NCBI RefSeq assembly: GCF_900070355.1
Contig: NZ_LN849456.1
Span: forward strand, 2,046,001 to 2,110,000
DNA: 64,000 nucleotides
Source of the DNA: Devriesea agamarum
GTDB lineage: Bacteria > Actinomycetota > Actinomycetes > Actinomycetales > Dermabacteraceae
Direction of reading: 5' to 3'
Part shown: positions 46,085 through 64,000 of the stretch, piece after piece
Position numbering within the stretch: position 1 is the stretch's first letter
How the letters are laid out: each line of letters begins with the position of its first letter
The notes under the pieces: generated by a model
Told to the model about the DNA's origin: nothing
Seen by the model: only the letters and a program-made list of their open reading frames with translations
The model's database searches: none
Made by a program: the position numbers and the translations under genes

Positions 46085-46759
46085 ATGCCGGGCAGTTTTG
46101 TCACGGTCACTATTGCGATAGCCGACGGATTATTGTCGGCGAGCCCGCCCGCCTGGCTACGTCTTCTGCCCGACGACCTACGTCGAATGCGGGCATACCG
46201 CCGCGAGGAGGATGTGCGGCGCTTCGTCACCGGTCGGGCTCTGGTCGCCTGCATGGCACGCCAAATACTCGGCGATTCGGCTCATGACCTGCGGTTTAGT
46301 CGTTTGGTTGACGAGGTAGGAGAGCGGAAACCTCGGTTCGCCTGGACATCGGATCCCGCGGGTCCACCGGATCTACCCGAGGTATCGATATCGCACAGCG
46401 GGCACTTAGTGGTGGTCGCTTTTGCGATGGGGTTCGAGGTGGGGGTGGACGTTGAAATGCACAAGTCTTTTTCCCTGCCTTTTACTGGCGCAGAGGACCC
46501 GGTGATGCGCATTGTGCTGACCCCGCAGGAACGAGCACGGCTGCATTCTCGAGGGGATGCCGCAGAGGCGTTTACGGCCAAAGAAGCAGTGTTGAAAGCG
46601 GTTGGCTGGGGTCTCGCGATTGACCCGCTGCTGGTCGAAATTATCGACAATCGCGTTACGCGTTTCGACGCACCACAGGCACGGGCGGTCTCTATTGCCC
46701 CGTTAATTGTTCCCGGCGAGGCTTCGGCGCATGTGGCGATTGCGCCGTTGGAGGCGTAG
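46085..46759 (+). CDS. Sfp-type 4'-phosphopantetheinyl transferase
   Basis: Adds the phosphopantetheine arm to carrier domains of the NRPSs and the aryl carrier protein. Motifs are in order: VSISHSG near residue 100, GVDVE near 119 (Mg binding), FTAKEAVLKAVGWGL near 162. I chose ATG 46085, preceded by a G-run. It gives 224 residues and aligns from its start with Sfp, whereas the open frame extends back to 45761 through sequence that does not look like this family. The 262 bases between the exporter stop and this start hold a coupled 67-codon ORF (45819-46022) in another frame and a degenerate repeat of about 28 bp (46013-46070). Last gene of the plus-strand siderophore operon. Confidence 0.9.
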   Translation: MPGSFVTVTIAIADGLLSASPPAWLRLLPDDLRRMRAYRREEDVRRFVTGRALVACMARQILGDSAHDLRFSRLVDEVGERKPRFAWTSDPAGPPDLPEVSISHSGHLVVVAFAMGFEVGVDVEMHKSFSLPFTGAEDPVMRIVLTPQERARLHSRGDAAEAFTAKEAVLKAVGWGLAIDPLLVEIIDNRVTRFDAPQARAVSIAPLIVPGEASAHVAIAPLEA

Positions 46760-53010: not shown

Positions 53011-53129
53011 TACGTGCGGTGCCACCTAATTACCTGTGGCACAGCCCAACTATCTGCGGTGCTGTCACCTACCTATGGTGTTGTCATCTATCTGAGGTAT
53101 CGCATCGTCTATCCGTGGTGTCGCTTCTC
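53011..53129. repeat. Six degenerate 20-bp tandem repeats
   Basis: Units such as TATCTGCGGTGCTGTCACCT and TATCCGTGGTGTCGCTTCTC follow one another at about 20-bp spacing, running from the convergent intergenic gap into the last codons of the MFS gene. Apart from this and the terminator, the 323-bp gap holds nothing recognisable. Confidence 0.7.
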
Positions 53130-54719
53130 GACCGCGGCGAGTATCCCCGCGGGCACCGCACACAGTGCCGTTGCGCCGAGCAGCCACCAGCTGGATGCCG
53201 CAAAAACATGCGGGGTCAGCCCGTGGTTGCGAACGGAAAGGGTCTGTAGGACGACCATGATGATGGTTGCCGCCAACGTGCCACCGAGCCGCTGCACGAG
53301 GTTGAGCTGAGGAGATGCCTCACCGATGGATTCGCGCGGAATAGATTCAAAGGCACGCGTCATGGCGGGGACGATTGTCAGCCCGGCACCTGCGCCCCGG
53401 ATAATCAAGATGATCATAAGCAGGGTGTAAGACGTCGTCGCCGACAGGTGCACCAGTGGAATCGTTGCCGCAATGGTGAGCGCGATGCCAACGATCATGG
53501 TCATTCCACCCCCGATTTTCGCCATCATCCGGGGACAGAGAATGGCGGAAAGCAGCACGCCGACACCACTGATGGACAGCAGCAGGCCGGTAACGATGGT
53601 GTTGTTACCGCGTCCAGCTTCGAGGTACAGCGGGATGATGACCATCGGTGCATACAGGATGAACCCCAAAAAGAACACGTTGATCGCTGACCAGGTATAA
53701 ACCGGGATTCGCAGCAGGCGAAGGTCCATCAGCGGGTGCTTGGCATGCAATTCCCGGTAGACGAACACAGCTGCGAACACGAGTGTGATCGCACTGGTTG
53801 CGCCGACCTCCCCGATTGAGAGCGGATGGTGCGCGAGCGAGTTAATGACGATGACGCAACCCAGCACCGTGCCTATGCCGGTGACCAGCCCAAAAACATC
53901 CAAACTTCGGGCGGGGCGATGCGAGGTGTCGCGTCGGGGAAGATGCCGCAGCGCGGCGACCACCACGATGGCGCAGTAGGGAACGTTAACCCAGTACACG
54001 GCACGCCAGCCCCCGGCGAATGCAATCAGCAACCCACCGATGGTCGGGCCAACTAAAGGAGCGATACAGGAGACCGTCCCGTTCAGTGACTGCACTTTGC
54101 CCAGGAATTGTTTCGGGATGTCCTGGGTGATCAAGATGATGGCGACCGGGGTCAGGATCCCGGCGGCTGATCCCGAGACGGCGCGAAAAGCAACCAGCCA
54201 CCACAGCGATGGGCTCAGTGAACACGCCAGTGAGCTCAGCCCGAACACTACGAGCGCGGCGGTAAAAAGCTGTCCGGCACCGTAGCGATGGACCAGCCAG
54301 GATGTCAGCGTCATGGTGGCGCAGAAGGCCATCAGATACGAGTTCAGCACCCACTGCATGGACCCGATGGAACCGAATGATTCGGCGGTGGCGTGCAGTG
54401 ACACGTTCACGATGGTGGTGTCGAGCATGGCGATGAACGATCCGGCCATGGCGATGACGAGGGTGGCGGTTGTGGTCCCCGAGGAGGTCATGGTACTGGG
54501 CTCCTCACCTGTGGGGCTGGCGCCAGTGGTGGGGATGGGGCCAGACCTAGCGCCGTCGATGTCCGTAGGACCGGCAGCGGGTGCAGGCCCGACGGCGGAT
54601 GCAGTGCCGACGGCGGATGCAGGACCAACGGCGGATGCAGTGCCGACGGCGCATGCCGCGGGATTGGGGCCGGCGACGGCGGTGTTGGCAGTGGTGGTGT
54701 CGGAAGACGTGGTGGTCAC
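53109..54719 (-). CDS. MFS drug/product exporter (DHA2, 14-helix type)
   Basis: Proton-driven efflux permease, probably exporting the product of this polyketide-like operon. The conserved AMLDTTIVNVSLH and QWVLNSYLMAFCATM near the first helices and the length of about 460-536 residues fit the EmrB/QacA branch. The open frame starts at GTG 54719, but its first 76 residues are a Gly/Ala/Pro/Thr-rich repeat. ATG 54491, preceded by GGTGAGGAGC, begins right before the first helix and may be the true start. It is last in the minus-strand operon, 13 bases after the acyltransferase gene. Confidence 0.88.
   Translation of the reverse strand: MTTTSSDTTTANTAVAGPNPAACAVGTASAVGPASAVGTASAVGPAPAAGPTDIDGARSGPIPTTGASPTGEEPSTMTSSGTTTATLVIAMAGSFIAMLDTTIVNVSLHATAESFGSIGSMQWVLNSYLMAFCATMTLTSWLVHRYGAGQLFTAALVVFGLSSLACSLSPSLWWLVAFRAVSGSAAGILTPVAIILITQDIPKQFLGKVQSLNGTVSCIAPLVGPTIGGLLIAFAGGWRAVYWVNVPYCAIVVVAALRHLPRRDTSHRPARSLDVFGLVTGIGTVLGCVIVINSLAHHPLSIGEVGATSAITLVFAAVFVYRELHAKHPLMDLRLLRIPVYTWSAINVFFLGFILYAPMVIIPLYLEAGRGNNTIVTGLLLSISGVGVLLSAILCPRMMAKIGGGMTMIVGIALTIAATIPLVHLSATTSYTLLMIILIIRGAGAGLTIVPAMTRAFESIPRESIGEASPQLNLVQRLGGTLAATIIMVVLQTLSVRNHGLTPHVFAASSWWLLGATALCAVPAGILAAVEKRHHG
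54571..54660. repeat. Five 18-bp repeats at MFS N-terminus
   Basis: Units near CCGACGGCGGATGCAGTG repeat at 18 bp. If translated they encode alternating Val-Gly-Pro/Thr-Ala-Ser-Ala units ahead of the exporter. Confidence 0.85.
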
Positions 54720-54732
54720 GTGGCTCTCGCAA

Positions 54733-56112
54733 TCAGTGAGCGGGATTCAGGGCAGTCGTTGAGCTCGCTGCGGCCATTGAGCTCGGCGCGGCCGTGGAAG
54801 GTGCCGCAGCCATGGAAGTTGCTGCAGCCATGGAGGTAGCTGCAGCCGTGGAGGTTGTCGCGGGCTGGTCGGCCACCGCGGGGCCAGCGGTGTCAGTGGT
54901 GTCAGCCGCTGCGATGTGGTTCGCAATGGCGGACAGGATCGCGCGAGCGATCTCGGCGTCATCGTCGTGCCGGCAGGCGAGGGTGAGGTCAGTGCCCCTA
55001 CCCGGGATGGTGTAGGAACTGATGAACATTGCGGCGTACGGCACCAGCATCGGCAGGGTGTGCATTCCGGTGGCGGTGAACGATGCACAGGTGTAATCAG
55101 CCAGCCTGGCCGTTCCGTGGTCGGAAATAATCGCTAGGCAGGGGAAACGCCCATCGCGCCCGACATCTTGCGCCTGCCGGATGGTACGTGCCACGGGGTT
55201 TGTGCGTCGGAAATCAGAGGTGACCGATGCCAGCTCAGCGCCCCGGGAAAGCGCCTGCAGCAGCATTCCATAAGCGCAGCGCCACCGGGTATCGCGGTCG
55301 ATATCCAGGTAGAGCGGGACGCTCAGGTTTGCGGTGGACGCAGACCGGCGGTCGTGGCGACGCAGATCCACCGGGATGAAAACCCGTGCTTGCGGCCCGA
55401 CTAGGAAACCTGCGAGCACCTCCATCATGCGAGCCGTCATCGCCGACGCAGTATGAGGGGTGGTGAGGCGGTACCAGGTGAGCTGATCGCGCGGGGACCG
55501 GCCATTGGAACGCAGCGGTGACGGACACATCAGCGACCCACTGACCGGGGCGGGCACGGCCTTACGCTGGCGGGCAGCATCCGCGTAATCCTGCTCGGTG
55601 AGCGTGTTGTGTCGGGATCCTTCGAGGTCTTCGCCGCGCAGGACCCGAAAAAGCTCGGCGGTCCAGTGTTCGAGCCCGCGCCCGTCGGTGATCAGATGGC
55701 TTGCCCGAACCACCAGGCTGACCCCGTGGGGCTGGTGAATGATGTGAAGGGCGCACAGTGGCCCGCGCACCGGGTCAAAGGGCTGGTGCATGAACGGGGC
55801 GCAGGTCCAGTCGGCATCATCCCTAGGTCCAGCGCCCATCCAGTGCTCGGTGACGACCGGCACAAGGTCGGACTCCACCCAGAATGCGCCCCGGCGCACC
55901 ACGTTCAGACCCGGGTTAGCCTGCGCGGTGATCGCGACGGCCGGTTGTAACCGCTTCGCGGACAGCTCACCGACACCGTCTATGACCAGGTTAATCACCG
56001 GATGCGATCCCTGAGTGGCAGCGTTGAGGTACCCGCGCTCGGTGGAGGAAATCTTGCGCCGGTAATACGGGATATCGCGGTCACGCGGGGTATCGGTGTG
56101 GGTCACGGACAC
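54733..56112 (-). CDS. Stand-alone condensation-domain-like acyltransferase
   Basis: Protein of 459 residues with the chloramphenicol-acetyltransferase fold of NRPS condensation and PapA-type enzymes. Its active-site motif is SHLITDGRG near residue 137 (HxxxDG). Later segments RVFIPVDLRRHDRR and NLSVPLYLDID fit the C-terminal half of this fold. Such enzymes move an acyl chain from a carrier protein to an amine or alcohol, so it may release the chain built by the neighbouring ketosynthase. The last 60 residues are Ala/Ser/Thr/Met-rich repeats. It starts inside the end of the phosphopantetheinyl transferase gene (10-base overlap). Family is fairly sure; the acceptor is unknown. Confidence 0.82.
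   Translation of the reverse strand: MSVTHTDTPRDRDIPYYRRKISSTERGYLNAATQGSHPVINLVIDGVGELSAKRLQPAVAITAQANPGLNVVRRGAFWVESDLVPVVTEHWMGAGPRDDADWTCAPFMHQPFDPVRGPLCALHIIHQPHGVSLVVRASHLITDGRGLEHWTAELFRVLRGEDLEGSRHNTLTEQDYADAARQRKAVPAPVSGSLMCPSPLRSNGRSPRDQLTWYRLTTPHTASAMTARMMEVLAGFLVGPQARVFIPVDLRRHDRRSASTANLSVPLYLDIDRDTRWRCAYGMLLQALSRGAELASVTSDFRRTNPVARTIRQAQDVGRDGRFPCLAIISDHGTARLADYTCASFTATGMHTLPMLVPYAAMFISSYTIPGRGTDLTLACRHDDDAEIARAILSAIANHIAAADTTDTAGPAVADQPATTSTAAATSMAAATSMAAAPSTAAPSSMAAASSTTALNPAH
54755..54862. repeat. Six 18-bp in-frame repeats at acyltransferase C-terminus
   Basis: Units near GCCATGGAAGTTGCTGCA repeat at 18 bp and encode a tail of the type Ala-Ala-Thr-Ser-Met-Ala. Confidence 0.88.
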
Positions 56113-56723
56113 GTGAGCAGTCCTTCCGATGGGATCGGTGTGGGTTCAAGACGCAGGCCGAGGCGGCGGTTAAGAGTGCCGGACCACCAACGCACCGGCT
56201 CAGGCTGGGCGGCGGCGAGGGCGAGAACGCCTACGTCGCACGGGCGGCTCTGTACCCAGCCCACGCCCTGTACCTTCCGCCATCCGGACGTCCATCCAGG
56301 GAGCTGAACGTCGCGAAAGTCCTCGACACTGAGACCAGACATTTTGATGAGCGCTTCGGATTCGGCGAACTGGGCGATGGTGGCGGGTTGGTGGGCCGGG
56401 AGGCGCAGAATCTCGGCGAGATAACCGAGGGCAGCCGGACGATGACGGTGATCCTGTAGGTCGATACCGATGTGGTGATCAGACAGCGCCACCCCACCCC
56501 ACCGGCCACAGTGCGACACCGATCCATGCATTCCTGCACCCGGCCACCACCAGCGTTGATCGGGGTCACGGGTGAGGATCTCACCAGCGGGCACACCCCG
56601 GGCGGTCGCGACGGTTTGGAGCAGGTAGCGTCCACCTCCGCTGGTGTGATGGCCAAACTGGTCGCGATGCTGACCGGACTGGCGAACCGTCACACAGTCG
56701 ATGACACCGCTTAAGCTGAGCAT
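56103..56723 (-). CDS. 4'-phosphopantetheinyl transferase (divergent)
   Basis: Second carrier-protein-activating enzyme of the window, 206 residues, very different from the Sfp-type one at 46.1 kb. Motifs: SVSHCG near residue 70, GIDLQD near 87 (Asp for Mg), FAESEALIKMSG near 122 (usual WxxKEA, here with Glu/Ser). It overlaps the ketosynthase stop by 13 bases and the acyltransferase start by 10. The ACP at 63.2 kb is its likely substrate. Confidence 0.82.
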   Translation of the reverse strand: MLSLSGVIDCVTVRQSGQHRDQFGHHTSGGGRYLLQTVATARGVPAGEILTRDPDQRWWWPGAGMHGSVSHCGRWGGVALSDHHIGIDLQDHRHRPAALGYLAEILRLPAHQPATIAQFAESEALIKMSGLSVEDFRDVQLPGWTSGWRKVQGVGWVQSRPCDVGVLALAAAQPEPVRWWSGTLNRRLGLRLEPTPIPSEGLLTCP

Positions 56724-59086
56724 GGCCCGTCAATCACCATGGCGGCGTAGGCTCCGCCCAAGGCATATGAGGACAGCAGAATCGGGCTAGCCTGGTCGGT
56801 GCCCAGCAGCGCCGCAGCGAGACCTAAACCAGCTGAAGACCCCTGGGTATCTCCCCAAACCGTCTTCGGGCTGAATACCCGTCTCCCACGAAGACCCGCG
56901 TCCTGGAATGCTTGGGCTTCAGCTGCTTCTACCTGGCCACTCCCGTGAGCCGCTGAAATCACGGTGCCAATCTGGTCGGCTTTGAGCTCGGCGCGGGTCA
57001 GCGCAGTGGTGAGCGCCTGCCCCCATCTGTGACCGTCGTCGCCGGTGCGACCCAGGCCCGTCAGCTGGCCGGTTGCGCCGAATCCGCGGATGGTGCCGAG
57101 AATGCGGGCCTGCCGTTCCGTGGCTGCGGCTCGTGACTCCACCAAAACAGCCACGGCCCCGTCAGAAATCGGTGCCCTTACCCCGGTGCCCGTGCCGTGC
57201 CGGGAGTTGTGCTGGGCGGCGACCTCTAGCGCTAGCGGCGGGAACTCGTCGGCGATGACCACCATGATCCGTTCGGCTCCGCCACGTCGAATCACCCGGC
57301 TCGCCAGATCGAGCGCCATCACAGAGCTAGTCCCTCCGGAGGCGATGGTGGCGGTGTAGCCCCGGTAGCGGTTCAGCACTGCCAGGTGCCCGGCGGCCGC
57401 GTTCACCACAGTATTGGGGAAGACCAGCGGGTTTGCTCCCTGGATACCCGAGGTGATGATGCCGTGATCAAATTCGAGCAGCGCAGACACCGGGCCGTAT
57501 CCGGTAGCAAACACGATCCCGGTGGTTTCCGCATGGACTCGGGTGAGCTTGCCGAACTCTGAGTACAGATCGTTAACGCTCGCTGCCGCCACGATAGACA
57601 ACGGGTCCAGACGGCGCGCCTTGGCCGGGTTAACACCACGGACCGCCCGTTTCAGATCGGCTCGACCCCCGACCAGGGCAGGGTCGAAGCCATCTCCATC
57701 ACGATCCATGTACCCGGCCATCAACGAGGCCAGTTTCCGGCAACCGATGATTGAACCCGCGAGTGCCCCCACCCCGGTAATAACCGCGTCATGCCTGGTG
57801 GGGTCCGGAGTTTCGATGCGCTGGTCCGGTGAACACACCACGATGGACGCGTTGTTACCGCCAAAGGCGAACGAGTTCGACATCGCCGTTGCCACTCGGG
57901 CAGGCCGTCCGCTGTCCGGGACGATATCGAGACCCGACGGGGCGGGCAGGTCGCGAGTATTAATGGTCGGTGGAAGCATCTGCTGGGTAATGGCCAGCAC
58001 GGTGCACACGGTTTCGATGGCGCCCGCGGCACCCAGCGTATGGCCGAGGCTGGACTTCACGGAGCTGGCCGGAGGGCGGGGCTGATCGCCAAATAGCAGG
58101 CTAATGGCCTTGGGTTCGACGGCATCATTGGTGGGGGTGCCGGTTCCGTGCAGGTTGATGTAATCGACCTGGTCGGGTGTGTGTCCCGCGCAGTTTAAGG
58201 CCGCACTCATGGAACGGTAGGCACCCTGTCCGCTGGGGTCGGGTGCGGTCTGGTGGTAGCCGTCGCAGCTGGTGCCATACCCGGCGATCACCGCGAGCGA
58301 GTGGGCGTTGCGCTCGCGGGTGAAGGCGTGGCGTTCGAGGATCAGGAAACCTGCCCCTTCACCCAGTGTGAGACCGGTCGAGGCCGACATGGGGCTGCAC
58401 GGGTTGGGGTCTAAAGCGCCAAGGCAGGAAAAGCCGTAGGAGCTCAGCGATGCTAGCGGGTCAACACCTCCGCAGATCACCACGTCGACGTCCCCGGCCC
58501 ACAGCATCTCGGCGGCAAATCCAATGGCGATGGCACCGGCTGCGCAGGCGTTCGAGGTCACCGCTCGTGGACCCTTGGCGCCGACGTGGGTAGCAATATG
58601 GTCGGCGACGCAGTGCAACTGGGAGGTCAGCGCCGCCTCATCGTCGATGTCACCGTCGCGGATGGCGCGAGCGTGGGCGCGTTGCAGGGTGGGCATCGCG
58701 CCGAGACTGGATCCGACGATGACGGCGATCCGGCTGGGATCACAATGGCTCAGGCGGAGGTCGGCGCTGTGCAGTGCCTGGTCCACCGCGGTAGATGACA
58801 GGGCGTAGCAGCGGTCGATCTCGGGATCCTGCGCGGTGGAAATCATTCCGGCCCAGGTGGTGAGCAGATCCGAGGTGTCGAACAACGTGTTCGTGACAAT
58901 GCCCGACTGTCCCGCGCAGATATTGCGCCAGCTGGTGTCGGTGTCGTCTCCGTTGGCGGTGACCAGTGAGATACCGGTGACCGCGACGGTGTTGTCAGCA
59001 GTGTTCTCAACGGTGTTGCCGCCGCGAAGAGTGCTGTTGGTAGGCAGAGCGTTGCCGCATGGGAGAGCGTCGGCGTGGTGAGGCAT
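56711..59086 (-). CDS. Fused ketosynthase / chain-length-factor-like protein
   Basis: One 791-residue chain with two thiolase-fold units. The first (about 30-430) is an active beta-ketoacyl-ACP synthase: nucleophile in TSNACAAG near 177, His in NLHGTGTPTND near 310, Lys/His in KSSLGHTLGAAG near 345. The second (about 435-790) has the same fold but reads ASGGTSS where the Cys should be and KTVWGDTQG in place of the KxxxGH signature, so it is catalytically dead and chain-length-factor-like. Type II PKS normally encode these two subunits on separate genes. With an ACP, FabG and FabZ in the operon it should extend and reduce a chain rather than make an aromatic. Starts three bases after the GcvT-like stop. 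Confidence 0.9.
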   Translation of the reverse strand: MPHHADALPCGNALPTNSTLRGGNTVENTADNTVAVTGISLVTANGDDTDTSWRNICAGQSGIVTNTLFDTSDLLTTWAGMISTAQDPEIDRCYALSSTAVDQALHSADLRLSHCDPSRIAVIVGSSLGAMPTLQRAHARAIRDGDIDDEAALTSQLHCVADHIATHVGAKGPRAVTSNACAAGAIAIGFAAEMLWAGDVDVVICGGVDPLASLSSYGFSCLGALDPNPCSPMSASTGLTLGEGAGFLILERHAFTRERNAHSLAVIAGYGTSCDGYHQTAPDPSGQGAYRSMSAALNCAGHTPDQVDYINLHGTGTPTNDAVEPKAISLLFGDQPRPPASSVKSSLGHTLGAAGAIETVCTVLAITQQMLPPTINTRDLPAPSGLDIVPDSGRPARVATAMSNSFAFGGNNASIVVCSPDQRIETPDPTRHDAVITGVGALAGSIIGCRKLASLMAGYMDRDGDGFDPALVGGRADLKRAVRGVNPAKARRLDPLSIVAAASVNDLYSEFGKLTRVHAETTGIVFATGYGPVSALLEFDHGIITSGIQGANPLVFPNTVVNAAAGHLAVLNRYRGYTATIASGGTSSVMALDLASRVIRRGGAERIMVVIADEFPPLALEVAAQHNSRHGTGTGVRAPISDGAVAVLVESRAAATERQARILGTIRGFGATGQLTGLGRTGDDGHRWGQALTTALTRAELKADQIGTVISAAHGSGQVEAAEAQAFQDAGLRGRRVFSPKTVWGDTQGSSAGLGLAAALLGTDQASPILLSSYALGGAYAAMVIDGPCSA

Positions 59087-59089
59087 GGT

Positions 59090-60181
59090 TCAGCCCATCG
59101 GTTCGGTGGCGGATCGTGACAGCACACGGGGCAGTGACACGGTTATCAGGCCCTGGTCACCGTCGGGTCCAGTCGCGGTGAGATCTAGACCCGGCACCCA
59201 GAACGGGGCTTCGACCACGGCAAAGAACAGTTCTTCGTCGGGGTTCGCGGACGGGCTCTGGTAGACGATCTCTCCGATGCCTTCCTCCCCGGCGCACACC
59301 GGCGTGCCCTCAGGCAGCGTGGTTCCGGTGGCGGCGACCAGCGGTACCAGCTTGGCCTGGTTTTGAGTGGGCGGGGTGAGATGCTGCGACCCGCGGAAAT
59401 CACCGAGCCGCTTCCAATCCACCATCCAGGAGAGGTCCAGCTGGTTGACGTTCAGTCCGTGCACGCCCATCCGGTAATAGGGAACCCCGGCTTCTGCTTC
59501 GACCCGGGCGAGCCCGTCGATGCCGACCACATCGCCGCCGTGCTGCCTGGCCCGTTCCGTGACGATGGCGGTGGCGCTGTGGGGCGCATTGCTCAGCAGA
59601 ACATAGCCGTATTCACCGGTGGTGGAGATTCGCACTAGATGCGCGCGCGCATCTGTGTCACCGGTACATCCTCCCGGTGCGGATAGGGCCGAGCCAGACG
59701 CGCTGGTCTCCGGCGAAGCACTCTCTGGCAGAGTGCTCTCCGGCAGAGAGATATCGGTAATGCCGTGCAGGGGGAGTCCTGCGATATCGAAATCCAGGAA
59801 TGTTTGAGCAACTTTCCACGCGGAGGGGCCCTGGAACGCGACCGCGCCCCATCCGGACGGGCTCACCTCCCAGATCACGCCGTCAGGCACCGGGATATCT
59901 GACAGGTAATCCTGGACCTCATCGGCGCTGACCGGTGTACGCGCCAACAACCAGGATTCATCGGTCAATTCCAGGTGGGCAAAGATGGCGAAAGGCTCGC
60001 CCTCGGACGTCAACGCCAGGCATTCATGCGTCGTGTCGGGATCCATGAATTCGCTGGATCGCGACAGTAACGCATCGCAAAAATCAAGCCGTTCGTCGCC
60101 GACAATGCGCACGAGCGGAGTCTCAATCGGGTGGACGGCCGTGGACTGGCGAATAACCTGGTAATCGGTCTGACTGGTCAT
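59090..60181 (-). CDS. GcvT/YgfZ-like folate-fold protein
   Basis: Protein of 363 residues resembling the aminomethyltransferase family: WGAVAFQGPSAWKVAQTFLDFDIAGLPLHGI, TGEYGYVLLSN, GIDGLARVEAEAGVPYYRMGV and a late ATGTTLPEGTPVCAGEEGIGEIVY. Glycine-cleavage T-protein and YgfZ bind tetrahydrofolate with this fold. A one-carbon transfer role or a structural/repair role is possible here. An insert from 15-bp repeats sits at about 140-160. Overlaps the upstream gene by one base. Family assignment is moderate; function in a polyketide operon is unknown. Confidence 0.72.
   Translation of the reverse strand: MTSQTDYQVIRQSTAVHPIETPLVRIVGDERLDFCDALLSRSSEFMDPDTTHECLALTSEGEPFAIFAHLELTDESWLLARTPVSADEVQDYLSDIPVPDGVIWEVSPSGWGAVAFQGPSAWKVAQTFLDFDIAGLPLHGITDISLPESTLPESASPETSASGSALSAPGGCTGDTDARAHLVRISTTGEYGYVLLSNAPHSATAIVTERARQHGGDVVGIDGLARVEAEAGVPYYRMGVHGLNVNQLDLSWMVDWKRLGDFRGSQHLTPPTQNQAKLVPLVAATGTTLPEGTPVCAGEEGIGEIVYQSPSANPDEELFFAVVEAPFWVPGLDLTATGPDGDQGLITVSLPRVLSRSATEPMG
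59702..59761. repeat. Four degenerate 15-bp in-frame repeats
   Basis: Units such as AGTGCTCTCCGGCAG encode Leu-Pro-Glu-Ser-type repeats inside the GcvT-like protein. Confidence 0.7.
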
Positions 60182-62589
60182 CAGTCATCCTTTCGGTGGG
60201 GGAGTGAGCTATCCGAGACCGGATATTGGGTGAACTGTGAGGGGCGAGTATGGACCGGTTGCGTAGCTTCCGGGTTTAGGGCCGCGGGAAGCTGGTCGGT
60301 ATGGGATTGCTCGAGGAGCCGGACCGTTTGGCAGGGCCCCGTCGGGGCGCCAGTTATACGAAGCCGCCAGGTCATGGGTGCGTCGGGCCCGATGGCCCGA
60401 CTGACGCAACCGATCAGGAGCCCCGACGAGGTCGAACGCACCAGGATTTCCGGGCTCAACGCGTCGTGATAACCCGGTGCGGGCCCGATCTGGAACCAGA
60501 ATCCGGCATCCAGTTCGACGGCGACGCCGCAGGTCCAGCGCTGCCAGCGTCTCGATGCGGTCAGCGACCATAGGCCGGACGGGCCGGGGAACACGATGCG
60601 TCCGCCAGTTCGATGACGCGGGGTGACCCAGAGGACGTTCTCGCTGGCGGTAACCGTTACTGGTACAGGTGCGGGCGCAGGTGTAGGAGCAGGTGTAGGT
60701 ACAGGTGCGGGTGCAGGCGCAAAAGTGGGCATAAAAATGGGTGGAGCTAGCACGGTGAGGTCGTGGCAGCCTGGCCCGTTATCGCCGACACGGTGTCGAA
60801 GCTGGGGGATGATGGCGTCGGGGTCATCCTCCGCGGGCCGCAGACCCCAACCGATCCCGTGTCGCCTGTCCTGGCGGGAAATTTCCTGGCTGGTCCAGAT
60901 GCCGTGGGACCAGACGGGGTTGCATGCGAAGGCTCGGCGTCGCGACGGCGCAGAGCGCACCACAGATCGGCCATTGACTATCCATCGCGTCACCGCGTGG
61001 GAGCCGGCATCCACGGTGAACTTTTCCTGTGCGAGCTCGGGTGCGGGTTCGGCTGCTACGGGTATTGCCGTGGGTTCACTATTGTTCGGGGCTGACGGCC
61101 GTTGCTCGGTTGCGTCGCACAGCATGATCGACGTGCTCAGGTGAACCGTGCCGGTTCGGTCAGTGCGCAGACGCCGATCCAGCAAATGCGAGTGCACCAG
61201 GGTATCGGCGGGGCCAGCGGTGGATGCCACGGGGCGAGCGTCGCTGTCGTACCAGGTGATCACGCAATTCGGGGGTAGAGCAGTGCCCGCGGCGGGCATT
61301 TCGCTTGCGTCGGGAACGGCTACATCGTCGCCGACAGGGCAAAGAGACGGGGATATGTGCTGGTCAGAGGTGGGCGTTGACGTGGGTAGAGGCTCGATGG
61401 CACCGACGGTCAACCAACCCTGGCGCACTCCGACCCACTGAAACATCCGCACCGGGGCATCCGGAAGACCGTGGATAGTGTGGGTGACGGTATTCGCCCC
61501 CAGCTCTATGCGGCACGACAGGTCGCACGGTTCCTGCCCCCGGTCTTCCGGTGCCCTCTGGTCTTCCTGTGCATCCCGGTGCTCCGGCGCGTCCCGATGT
61601 TCCTGATCCGCCCGATCGTGCTGAGTGATGACGAATCCGTTGGGTACGCGTGCGATGGTGAGCGGCCTAGGATTGCACTCGCGCCAGCCGCCGGCCCGAT
61701 GGGGGACATGAGCGGGCAGAGCCCACTGCATCAATGGACCGTCGATGTGCCGGTGTGTGAGAGTGACGGTGCCATCGGCGGCGGAGACTCTCAAAGCGAA
61801 GTCTCCTCGGTGATGGGTGTGCTCGCCAGGGGTGGCGATGGGTCGGGCAGGTGGGTTGGTGAGCACCACGGGCCGGGTATCACCGCTGGCCAGTTCGAGT
61901 TCTGCCGTGGTCACCGTGGCGGCATCGACATCCACCACAGCGCGCACCTGAACGGCGCCGAGACCGAGGTGGTAGCGCACGGAGCGCCGTCCGCGATCCC
62001 AAAAAGTGTCCGGCTGGAGCTGGTTGCTTAGCCGTGTAGTCAGGCCCCCGAACGCGGTGAGCGAACGCAGACCAGCACGCATGTCATCGTCGAGATCGTC
62101 GATTATGGCGCGCACAATCAGCGGGATGAAGTTCGCCAGCTGCACGTTGCCGTCGGCTCCCGGCTGAGGATGGTCGATGCACACGCACCCAACCCGTCGA
62201 TAGACCCGCAGGGCCGCCGTATTTGCCGGGTTGACGGTGAGGGTGAGAACGCTGAGTTTTTCGCGCAGCATGCAGTCAGAGGCCTCGCTGAACAATCGTC
62301 CTGTGACCACTGATTGGCGATAGCGCGGGGCTACGAAAAACATGTCGGCAATGCCTTCACCGGGGTGTGCGGTGCGTCGGCCATTGCTGCGAAATACTCC
62401 GATCGTGCCGATAACCCGGTCATCGTCACAGGCCAGGAGAAAGCAATATGGGCCCCGGTCGGTAATTTCCCGATGAAACTGCTGTGCTGTGACGCCGCTG
62501 CTCACCGGATTCGGGTTGTCGGCGTGGGAGGTAAAGAGATCGGCGACGGCGGGAGCATCGCTTTCCCGGTAATCCCTAATAATGACCAT
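60181..62589 (-). CDS. GNAT acetyltransferase fused to a large unknown domain
   Basis: 802 residues. Residues 1-155 form a GNAT N-acyltransferase: MVIIRDYRESDAPAVADLF, a beta-strand ending DMFFVAPRYRQSVVTGRLF (acetyl-CoA loop) and LTVNPANTAALRVYRRVGC. The remaining 640 residues match no family I recognise. They are rich in Thr/Val/Trp strands (ENVLWVTPRHRTGGRIVFPG, SLTASRRWQRWTCGVAVELDAGFWFQIG), suggesting a beta-sandwich. Repeat-derived inserts occur near 330-350 (Asp/Glu/Arg/His) and 635-655 (Pro/Ala/Val). It lies between the dehydratase and GcvT-like genes in the same operon, so it probably modifies the acceptor or the product. The fusion is uninterrupted in one frame. Confidence 0.75.
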   Translation of the reverse strand: MVIIRDYRESDAPAVADLFTSHADNPNPVSSGVTAQQFHREITDRGPYCFLLACDDDRVIGTIGVFRSNGRRTAHPGEGIADMFFVAPRYRQSVVTGRLFSEASDCMLREKLSVLTLTVNPANTAALRVYRRVGCVCIDHPQPGADGNVQLANFIPLIVRAIIDDLDDDMRAGLRSLTAFGGLTTRLSNQLQPDTFWDRGRRSVRYHLGLGAVQVRAVVDVDAATVTTAELELASGDTRPVVLTNPPARPIATPGEHTHHRGDFALRVSAADGTVTLTHRHIDGPLMQWALPAHVPHRAGGWRECNPRPLTIARVPNGFVITQHDRADQEHRDAPEHRDAQEDQRAPEDRGQEPCDLSCRIELGANTVTHTIHGLPDAPVRMFQWVGVRQGWLTVGAIEPLPTSTPTSDQHISPSLCPVGDDVAVPDASEMPAAGTALPPNCVITWYDSDARPVASTAGPADTLVHSHLLDRRLRTDRTGTVHLSTSIMLCDATEQRPSAPNNSEPTAIPVAAEPAPELAQEKFTVDAGSHAVTRWIVNGRSVVRSAPSRRRAFACNPVWSHGIWTSQEISRQDRRHGIGWGLRPAEDDPDAIIPQLRHRVGDNGPGCHDLTVLAPPIFMPTFAPAPAPVPTPAPTPAPAPVPVTVTASENVLWVTPRHRTGGRIVFPGPSGLWSLTASRRWQRWTCGVAVELDAGFWFQIGPAPGYHDALSPEILVRSTSSGLLIGCVSRAIGPDAPMTWRLRITGAPTGPCQTVRLLEQSHTDQLPAALNPEATQPVHTRPSQFTQYPVSDSSLPHRKDD
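60662..60720. repeat. 6/12-bp in-frame repeat
   Basis: GGTGCGGGCGCA-type units encode a Pro-Ala-Pro-Val/Thr run within the unknown domain of the GNAT fusion. Confidence 0.75.
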
Positions 62590-62610: not shown

Positions 62611-63243
62611 TTAACCGAGTCGCTCGGTCACGATGAGTGTTCCTGCGGCAACCACCTTGCGATCCACGGTCGCCCGCACCTGGGCTTCGCGCAGACCGGA
62701 ATATCGTGCGCCGAGCCGGGCAGACAGGTTCAAAACATCGCCGGGCACAACCAGCCGTGAGAACTTCATCTTGTTGATGGATCCCAAATAGCCGACGTGT
62801 TGGCTCAGCTGTGAAGACGTGGCGCCGTCATCGGGTGACCCGGTGACCTGATGGGTTGTCTGCCGGGCGCTTTGCTCGGTGGCTTTCGCTGCGGCTTCTT
62901 TGTGTTCGGCGATATAGATCACCGCGATGAGCTGTGCGAGGGCTTCAACAATCATCACCCCGGGCATGATCGAATGATCGGGGTAGTGGCCGGCGAAATA
63001 CGGCTCGTTAATGGAGACGGCCTTAATTCCTTCGCCGCTCAGCCCGGGGTGGACATTGTGAGCGCGGTCGATCATGAGCATGGGCCAACGATGCGGCAGC
63101 ATTTGCTTAATGTCGTCGCTGGAATAGGAATATAGCTGCTGCGATGTGTCCCCTGTTTGTGGGCATGTTTTCTGGGCGTACCTATCTTGGTTGGCAGGTC
63201 CCTGGGTCGAACTTTCTCGTAGGGGTAGCGATACGGAGGTCAT
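62611..63243 (-). CDS. FabZ-type 3-hydroxyacyl-ACP dehydratase
   Basis: Removes water from 3-hydroxyacyl-ACP to give a double bond. The hotdog motif is AGHYPDHSIMPGVMIVEALAQL, with the catalytic His and Glu, and MLPHRWPMLMIDRA is the family's N-terminal strand. The 210 residues exceed the usual 150 because of a 45-residue N-terminal extension and a Thr/Ser/Gln-rich insert after the active helix. The start overlaps the ACP stop (ATGA). With FabG it would introduce the alkenes of an unsaturated chain; no enoyl reductase is visible. Confidence 0.92.
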   Translation of the reverse strand: MTSVSLPLRESSTQGPANQDRYAQKTCPQTGDTSQQLYSYSSDDIKQMLPHRWPMLMIDRAHNVHPGLSGEGIKAVSINEPYFAGHYPDHSIMPGVMIVEALAQLIAVIYIAEHKEAAAKATEQSARQTTHQVTGSPDDGATSSQLSQHVGYLGSINKMKFSRLVVPGDVLNLSARLGARYSGLREAQVRATVDRKVVAAGTLIVTERLG

Positions 63244-63542
63244 GATGCGGGAGTGTTGCGTTCGATGTGGTCGACCATTGCGTTAATGGAACCGAAGGCT
63301 TGGGAATCGTCATCGCTTACCGACACCCCGAATTCGTTATTGACCATCACCACGACTTCGAGGGTGTCCAGCGAATCCATTTCCAAACCTCGTCCAAATA
63401 GAGGTTGATTATCGGAAATGATGTCAGGGCTAGTTTCTAGGCCCAGGCTGTTAATGATGTTGTTTTTGAGTTTCCAGTTCGTCGCCATTCGCTGCTCGGC
63501 TTTGTCGCGAATAGAGGCGGCATTGAGATGTGATGTAGACAT
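63240..63542 (-). CDS. Acyl carrier protein
   Basis: Carries the growing chain on a phosphopantetheine arm. GLEMDSLDTLEVVVMVNNEFGVSVSDDD holds the modified Ser (DSLD) near residue 56, followed by the typical acidic helix. 100 residues from ATG 63542, with AAAAGGA upstream; a shorter start at 63488 is possible. Coupled to the dehydratase gene by ATGA. Confidence 0.93.
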   Translation of the reverse strand: MSTSHLNAASIRDKAEQRMATNWKLKNNIINSLGLETSPDIISDNQPLFGRGLEMDSLDTLEVVVMVNNEFGVSVSDDDSQAFGSINAMVDHIERNTPAS

Positions 63543-63691: not shown

Positions 63692-64000
63692 TCAGCCGGT
63701 GATCATGCCGCCATCCACGGTGAGCACCTTGCCGGTGACATAGGAGGCGGCTGGGCTGGCTAAGAAGGTGACGCACTGGGCAACCTCGCTGGCGGTTCCA
63801 AGTCGTCCCAGTGGGATGGCGCTGGCTGCCTGTTCGCGGGAAGAGGCTGACAATTTGGCGACCATATCGGTGTCGATGAAACCCGGAGCCACGCAGTTGA
63901 CGCGGATGCCTCGGCTGGCGGTTTCGAGCGCGAGGGTTTTGGTCAGGGCGATGCATCCGCCTTTGCTGGCGGCGTAGTTGATCTGTCCGCTGCGACCGGC
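63692..64000 (-). CDS. FabG-type 3-ketoacyl-ACP reductase (5' end beyond window)
   Basis: C-terminal 102 residues of a short-chain dehydrogenase. The catalytic Tyr/Lys lie in INYAASKGG, followed by ALETASRGIRVNCVAPGFIDTDM and the closing SYVTGKVLTVDGGM. These match FabG closely. It would reduce each new 3-keto group using NADPH. It is the first gene of this operon inside the window; 149 bases separate it from the ACP gene. Confidence 0.92.
   Translation of the reverse strand, partial: AGRSGQINYAASKGGCIALTKTLALETASRGIRVNCVAPGFIDTDMVAKLSASSREQAASAIPLGRLGTASEVAQCVTFLASPAASYVTGKVLTVDGGMITG

Follow-up and report, generated by a model that had tools for sequence, protein, structure and literature searches.

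The fusion gene and its surroundings

The window analysed here, a 64,000-nucleotide stretch of Devriesea agamarum DNA, carries on its minus strand a gene for a 791-aa protein in which a ketosynthase (KS) half is followed by an inactive partner half resembling a chain-length factor (CLF). The gene starts with ATG and consists of one uninterrupted frame, with no internal stop between 56711 and 59086:

56711..59086, minus: KS-CLF-like fusion, 791 aa
57821..59002, minus: FabF-type KS half, residues 29-422 (Pfam, alignment, structure search)
58544-58546, minus: C181 of the KS half (alignment)
58148-58150, minus: H313 of the KS half (alignment)
58040-58042, minus: H349 of the KS half (alignment)
56714..57820, minus: inactive partner (CLF-like) half, residues 423-791 (Pfam, alignment, model, structure search)
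57332-57334, minus: G585 of the partner half, at the Cys position (alignment)
56951-56953, minus: A712 of the partner half, at the first His position (alignment)
56849-56851, minus: D746 of the partner half, at the second His position (alignment)

Across the whole chain, the Pfam domains ketoacyl-synt and Ketoacyl-synt_C are each found twice, and the partner half by itself scores for both (29.6 and 29.7 bits against a cut-off of 20.8); the KS half stays below the cut-offs of the NCBIfam fabF and AmcF models. The initial annotation had assigned a complete Cys-His-His active site to the first half, and to the second a Gly at the nucleophile position and an Asp for the second His; alignment bears out both assignments (C181, H313 and H349; G585 and D746). 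The first His of the second half, which that annotation did not mention, is displaced too: Ala712 occupies its position, a His lies two residues beyond, and Lys741 is retained. Given the single frame, these residues and the predicted fold, the proposal of a live KS and a dead partner in one polypeptide stands. A 1:1 ratio of KS to partner is a consequence of the single chain, and this ratio may be functionally important.

The fusion belongs to a minus-strand operon that includes the following neighbours:

63692..64000, minus: FabG-type ketoreductase (KR), cut by the window end (whole gene at L046:9692-10453)
63240..63542, minus: acyl carrier protein (ACP; PF00550, 37.1 bits against a cut-off of 20.8)
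62611..63243, minus: FabZ-like dehydratase (NF000582, 131.2 bits against a cut-off of 113)
60181..62589, minus: 802-aa protein with a GNAT acetyltransferase domain at about residues 38-134 (Pfam)
59090..60181, minus: degenerate GcvT-like protein, 363 aa (Pfam GCV_T, 26.5 bits against 25.6; alignment with canonical GcvT)
56103..56723, minus: probable Sfp-type phosphopantetheinyl transferase (PPTase; weak 4PPT_N match, E 0.011, under the Pfam cut-off)
54733..56112, minus: HxxxDG-type acyltransferase/condensation-like protein (motif by eye only)
53109..54719, minus: MFS (EmrB/DHA2-like) exporter (Pfam, NCBIfam)

Transcription would run from KR through ACP, FabZ, the 802-aa GNAT protein, the GcvT-like gene, the fusion, the probable PPTase and the HxxxDG-like gene to the MFS gene. 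Neighbours overlap or lie at most 21 nt apart, except for a gap of 149 nt between KR and ACP; the GcvT-like gene stops 3 nt ahead of the fusion start. By eye, the ACP has a GLEMDSL motif around the expected Ser, and the probable PPTase has an IGID...ESEALIK stretch, which we take to be the PPTase motif; this protein is not one of the genome's two ACPS-family matches. The best Pfam match of the KR is adh_short_C2, titled enoyl-ACP reductase, and it scores 218 bits to a fabG-annotated KR from Priestia. Neither the long C-terminal part of the 802-aa protein nor the HxxxDG-like protein has a Pfam match.

Past the window end, the cluster continues with SbnB-like, SbnA-like, Lant_dehydr_N, aminotransferase, AMP-binding and malonyltransferase genes. 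The SbnA and SbnB models are matched above their curated cut-offs (366.6 bits against 349.95 and 332.1 against 326.9), which makes 2,3-diaminopropionate a likely building block of the cluster product. In the same region, L046:12823-15264 encodes an 813-aa protein whose sole match is the lantibiotic dehydratase N-terminal domain. Elsewhere in the window, two plus-strand ORFs of 4062 and 2614 aa, presumed NRPS/PKS, occupy 21925-41954; together with a PPTase of the ACPS family matched at roughly 46439-46669, they may form a second biosynthetic cluster beside this one.

Predicted structure, distribution and ancestry

A full-chain AlphaFold2 model, built from a 20-sequence alignment, has a mean pLDDT of 84.1 and a pTM of 0.90, with pLDDT below 50 for residues 1-28. 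In Foldseek, its best PDB match is 6riw, the PfaC KS-CLF didomain, which spans both halves (885 alignment columns, E 9.9e-51, TMq 0.79, TMt 0.68, rmsd 5.7 A); the remaining 49 Foldseek matches listed cover about 400 columns each, that is, one half. The comparison with known KS-CLF structures that the initial annotation had suggested thus leads to PfaC, and because the model best matches this didomain over both halves, the single-chain format is not in itself a new kind of KS-CLF. Matches in VIA cover the KS half, with Z up to 53.6 and a Z of 53.2 for 6kxd_A (ishigamide KS/CLF), and 6riw is absent among the 50 VIA matches shown. Modelled alone, the partner half reaches a pLDDT of 85.7 and a pTM of 0.89, and it resembles E. 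coli FabF 1kas (TMq 0.81, Foldseek) and 4ls8_A (Z 42.6, rmsd 2.8 over 355 residues, VIA). By model and PDB search, this half, devoid of the catalytic Cys, is thus predicted to have the thiolase fold of a ketosynthase, as had been supposed. Among solved chains, 9s5h_B comes nearest to the KS half in sequence, and 9s5h_C to the partner half.

We surveyed the joined form by scanning contigs for a partner-half motif, [AVG][NS]P[ALS][VQ]F[PT]NTV, that was derived from four joined proteins and is therefore biased to joined forms. On frame-by-frame reading of the 33 loci selected, the KS-partner junction lies in one frame in 30; in 26 the KS continues into the partner half in one frame, three of these (L078, L080, L081) having gaps, masked bases or a later frame break, and in four (L061, L065, L066, L082) a break at another point interrupts the KS or the partner, as happens in draft assemblies. 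KS and partner are separate genes in the other three (L062, L077, L083). Not all loci are independent: L053 and L055 come from one species, L065 and L066 from one genome. The fusion had been called rare compared with separate genes, a claim that is not supported as worded, with single-chain pfaC and hglC already described and 30 of these 33 loci joined.

Broad genome samples hold few joined proteins; since two candidates per genome were scored, the following full-length counts are lower bounds. Under a strict cut-off, at least 2 of 396 Actinomycetota genomes have a full-length match, the source genome included; 229 of the 396 are matched at E<=1e-90, the rest of the matches listed covering the KS half only. 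At least 2 of 398 genomes have one in the Bacillota sample (centre genome included), at least 4 of 345 in the phylum of G398 and at least 5 of 368 in the order of G980. On reading, one of the four, the centre, and four of the five are joined; in G1228, G1267, G1402 and G1692, the match reads through a stop between two adjacent genes, the second cut by the contig end in G1267. A search with the CLF half matched 68 of 396 genomes in the order of the source organism, and among seven of those loci re-read, one is joined (L017, from G268), three hold separate CLF-like genes (L018, L019, L038) and three KS-like genes (L020, L031, L037). Plasmid records with a joined protein come from Streptomyces, Priestia, Lachnospira (Eubacterium) eligens and Pseudalkalibacillus, the last (L113) probably being one record with G1878 (L137). 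On the L. eligens plasmid (L112, 12251-17560), the fused KS-CLF is accompanied by ACP, KR, FabZ and malonyltransferase.

Trees of 68 and 46 rows place the joined KS halves together with the split KS of L062 and L077, in groups of 27 rows (support 95/94) and 16 rows (92/90), respectively. In the 46-row tree, canonical KS, Gln-type CLF, FabF and separate KS and KS-like genes of actinomycete clusters come together (15 rows, 91/92), and the joined partner halves, with the split partners of L062 and L077, stand apart from all of these on a 99/99 branch. The larger tree leaves out seven near-duplicate fusions; the smaller one thins actinomycete and cyanobacterial fusions to seven and leaves out the long-branch L113 partner half, L056_KS, L056_CLF and L011_FabF. 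L006, L008, L092 and L095 are in neither. Both trees are unrooted with long branches, and the partner half of the window fusion is very divergent, on a branch of 2.2-2.6, its exact place unsure. That the partner is a chain-length factor by descent, as the initial annotation implied, does not find support in the separation from Gln-type CLFs, although with such long branches this falls short of proof. The simplest reading is that such pairs of KS and partner form a lineage of their own, in which the two were joined either early on or repeatedly, and do not stem from the fusion of a KS with a canonical CLF.

A recurring cassette with a GcvT-like gene

Five clusters, from three phyla, link the fusion to a GcvT-like gene, located as follows:

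Window, 59090-60181: D. agamarum
L048:12901-13983: Priestia megaterium QM B1551 plasmid pBM500
L109:11963-13060: Tumebacillus flagellatus
L111:11458-12594: Bacillota genome G980
L076:7696-8787: Thermodesulfobacteriota MAG

All five contain malonyltransferase, KR, ACP, FabZ, GcvT-like and fusion genes together, and in each the gene immediately upstream of the fusion is the GcvT-like one. The order KR, ACP, FabZ, GcvT-like, fusion is kept in four of the five; in L076, FabZ precedes ACP and the malonyltransferase is on the opposite strand. Five other genes separate malonyltransferase and KR in the window cluster. L076 also has SbnA- and SbnB-like genes, and a further KS-domain gene lies at L076:13318-14757. 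Tumebacillus encodes, between FabZ and the GcvT-like gene, a 1081-aa protein that matches GNAT weakly (L109:13080-16325), in the same place as the 802-aa protein of the window; both proteins match near the start and have a long remainder without a convincing Pfam match. The searches turned up no GcvT-like gene in the remaining 34 of 36 loci scanned together, nor in L110, L112 and L113, nor in seven further loci.

Genomes G000, G399 and G980 each carry, elsewhere, a separate gcvT above the TIGR00528 cut-off (235.85 bits). The linked copies of G398, G399 and G980 fall below this cut-off, and the window protein has no TIGR00528 match at E<=0.001. The canonical DDL(I/L)VY stretch reads AIFAHL in the window protein and TELIVY, DAVTLH, DLVTLY and ADVYVY in the other four linked copies. 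The GcvT-like genes linked to the fusion are therefore distinct from the housekeeping gcvT. We tentatively suggest that Actinomycetota, Bacillota and Thermodesulfobacteriota share a so far undescribed class of type II PKS-like cassette, represented by the five. In it, the degenerate GcvT-fold protein might act on the ACP-bound chain, for example in ring closure or one-carbon/amine tailoring, the joined KS-partner being built to work with it. This recurring cassette, which we regard as more interesting and novel than the joining itself, is a pointer to an uncharacterised product family. The Priestia member lies on pBM500 of P. megaterium QM B1551, a strain with a long history of laboratory use.

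Proposed function and relation to known systems

From what the analysis shows (the fusion, its active-site residues, predicted fold and arrangement, and its neighbourhood and recurrence), we consider that the protein is probably the condensing enzyme of a highly reducing type II PKS, a free-standing one with KS and CLF-like partner in a single chain; discrete ACP, KR and DH genes lie beside the KS-CLF, as such systems have. Cys181 of the KS half would accept an acyl group from the ACP, and His313 and His349 would drive condensation with malonyl-ACP. The dead half would pack on the KS half like the CLF in Act or PfaC and help to form the acyl tunnel, and it is predicted to limit chain length. 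KR and FabZ would reduce and dehydrate every beta-keto unit. A conjugated polyenoyl chain is likely because no dedicated enoyl reductase was recognised among the 15 cluster proteins scanned (Pfam, 8 + 7; the scan stops short of the more upstream genes in L047), though fatty-acid enzymes could act in trans, the best Pfam match of the KR is itself titled enoyl-ACP reductase, and the polyene character is to that extent conditional. The chain would probably be linked to 2,3-diaminopropionate (SbnA/SbnB) or a derivative, and the product may be exported by the MFS pump. On the best reading, the cluster is thus a highly reducing type II PKS making the acyl group of a probably diaminopropionate-containing product.

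A possible, if rather doubtful, alternative is that the dead half shapes the substrate or promotes cyclisation, like AmcG ('CYF') of cispentacin synthesis, with one or few condensations. Excerpts of PMC10698177 provide the precedent of a KS with a motif-less partner that performs one C2 elongation and ring closure; moreover, the partner half groups apart from canonical CLFs, a GcvT-like gene adjoins the fusion, and known cyclases were not recognised. The Amc models do pick up ACP, FabZ and KS of the window, at 30.2, 62.6 and 263.0 bits, but all under the cut-offs of 80, 140 and 325, so that the KS was rejected as a member of AmcF (NF058662). Although the fusions of Priestia and L076 exceed the AmcF cut-off, they also exceed that of fabF, which makes the AmcF model non-discriminating, and the adjoining KR and FabZ fit iterative reduction.

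It is quite unlikely that the fusion dimerises through its KS halves in the manner of FabF, with the dead halves outside as a scaffold. The KS half is FabF-like, sharing up to 37% of the aligned residues with FabF structures, but a full-chain pTM of 0.90 argues for the predicted intramolecular arrangement, like that of the PfaC KS-CLF. Highly improbable, despite PfaC being the nearest whole-chain structure, is a piece of a PfaC-type PUFA synthase: the chain stops at the end of the second half and lacks the DH domains that PfaC has, and ACP, KR, FabZ and malonyltransferase are separate genes, a layout on which we reject this candidate.

Finally, we give virtually no weight to an assembly or sequencing error having joined two genes, a concern raised at the outset for which no support was found: the frame is open, codon-position GC is unbroken across the junction (0.56/0.56/0.74 for codons 401-450), the source genome is a single contig of 99.99% completeness, and homologues in other phyla are joined at the equivalent place. 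Of the 16 bins (at most 50 codons each) across the gene, 13 have their highest GC at the third position; the exceptions are codons 451-500, 701-750 and 751-792.

The free-standing condensing enzyme favoured here can be set against several known systems. Searches of the open-access literature and excerpts of papers yielded no account of either the GcvT-linked cassette or a KS-CLF fusion that stands free in a type II system. Excerpts of a 2025 type II PKS review (PMC12664062) describe type II systems as monodomain or didomain polypeptides, with 'didomain' linked to aromatase/cyclases and both uses of 'fused' concerning ring systems; the main text of a 2023 catalogue of type II clusters (PMC10132072) contains neither 'fused' nor 'fusion'; and excerpts of PMC13311259 treat KS-CLF as a heterodimer while naming other enzymes as natural fusions.

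The joined KS and dead partner have counterparts in fused KS-CLFs of Streptomyces, Nocardia and Frankia (L053, L064, L072 and others), and 23 aligned relatives are 30-35% identical to the window fusion. Most of those actinomycete clusters differ in having an extra KS and KS-like gene just upstream; two annotated ones carry KSIII, and the GcvT-like gene was not found there. L049, L053, L072 and similar clusters combine a separate KS and KS-like gene with a fused KS-CLF. Canonical aromatic type II PKSs have Gln at the Cys position of the CLF (L114 and L115, by eye), in contrast to Gly585 in the window fusion.

Ishigamide and other highly reducing type II PKSs combine a KS and an inactive partner with separate ACP, KR and DH. 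KS and CLF are two chains in the ishigamide structures (6kxd-6kxf) and one chain in the window fusion. The cispentacin pair AmcF-AmcG likewise has a KS with a motif-less partner working on an ACP, according to excerpts of PMC10698177, but AmcF and AmcG are separate genes, and the window cluster has diaminopropionate genes and a GcvT-like gene. The same excerpts report that AmcG is insoluble when expressed alone; since a poorly soluble partner can hamper the engineering of type II PKSs, a natural single-chain KS-CLF would be handy there.

PfaC (6riw), to whose KS-CLF didomain an excerpt of PMC12895367 refers, shares with the window fusion an active KS followed by an inactive CLF in one chain. 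Excerpts of PMC3098273 give pfaC as [KS-CLF-DH2] and hglC as [KS-CLF-AT], both with a single-chain KS-CLF; in PfaC, DH domains follow the CLF within a megasynthase, whereas the window fusion ends at residue 791 and is free-standing, with separate ACP, KR and FabZ. The single-chain KS-CLF is thus already known from PUFA synthases, and the joining is less novel than the cluster that surrounds it.
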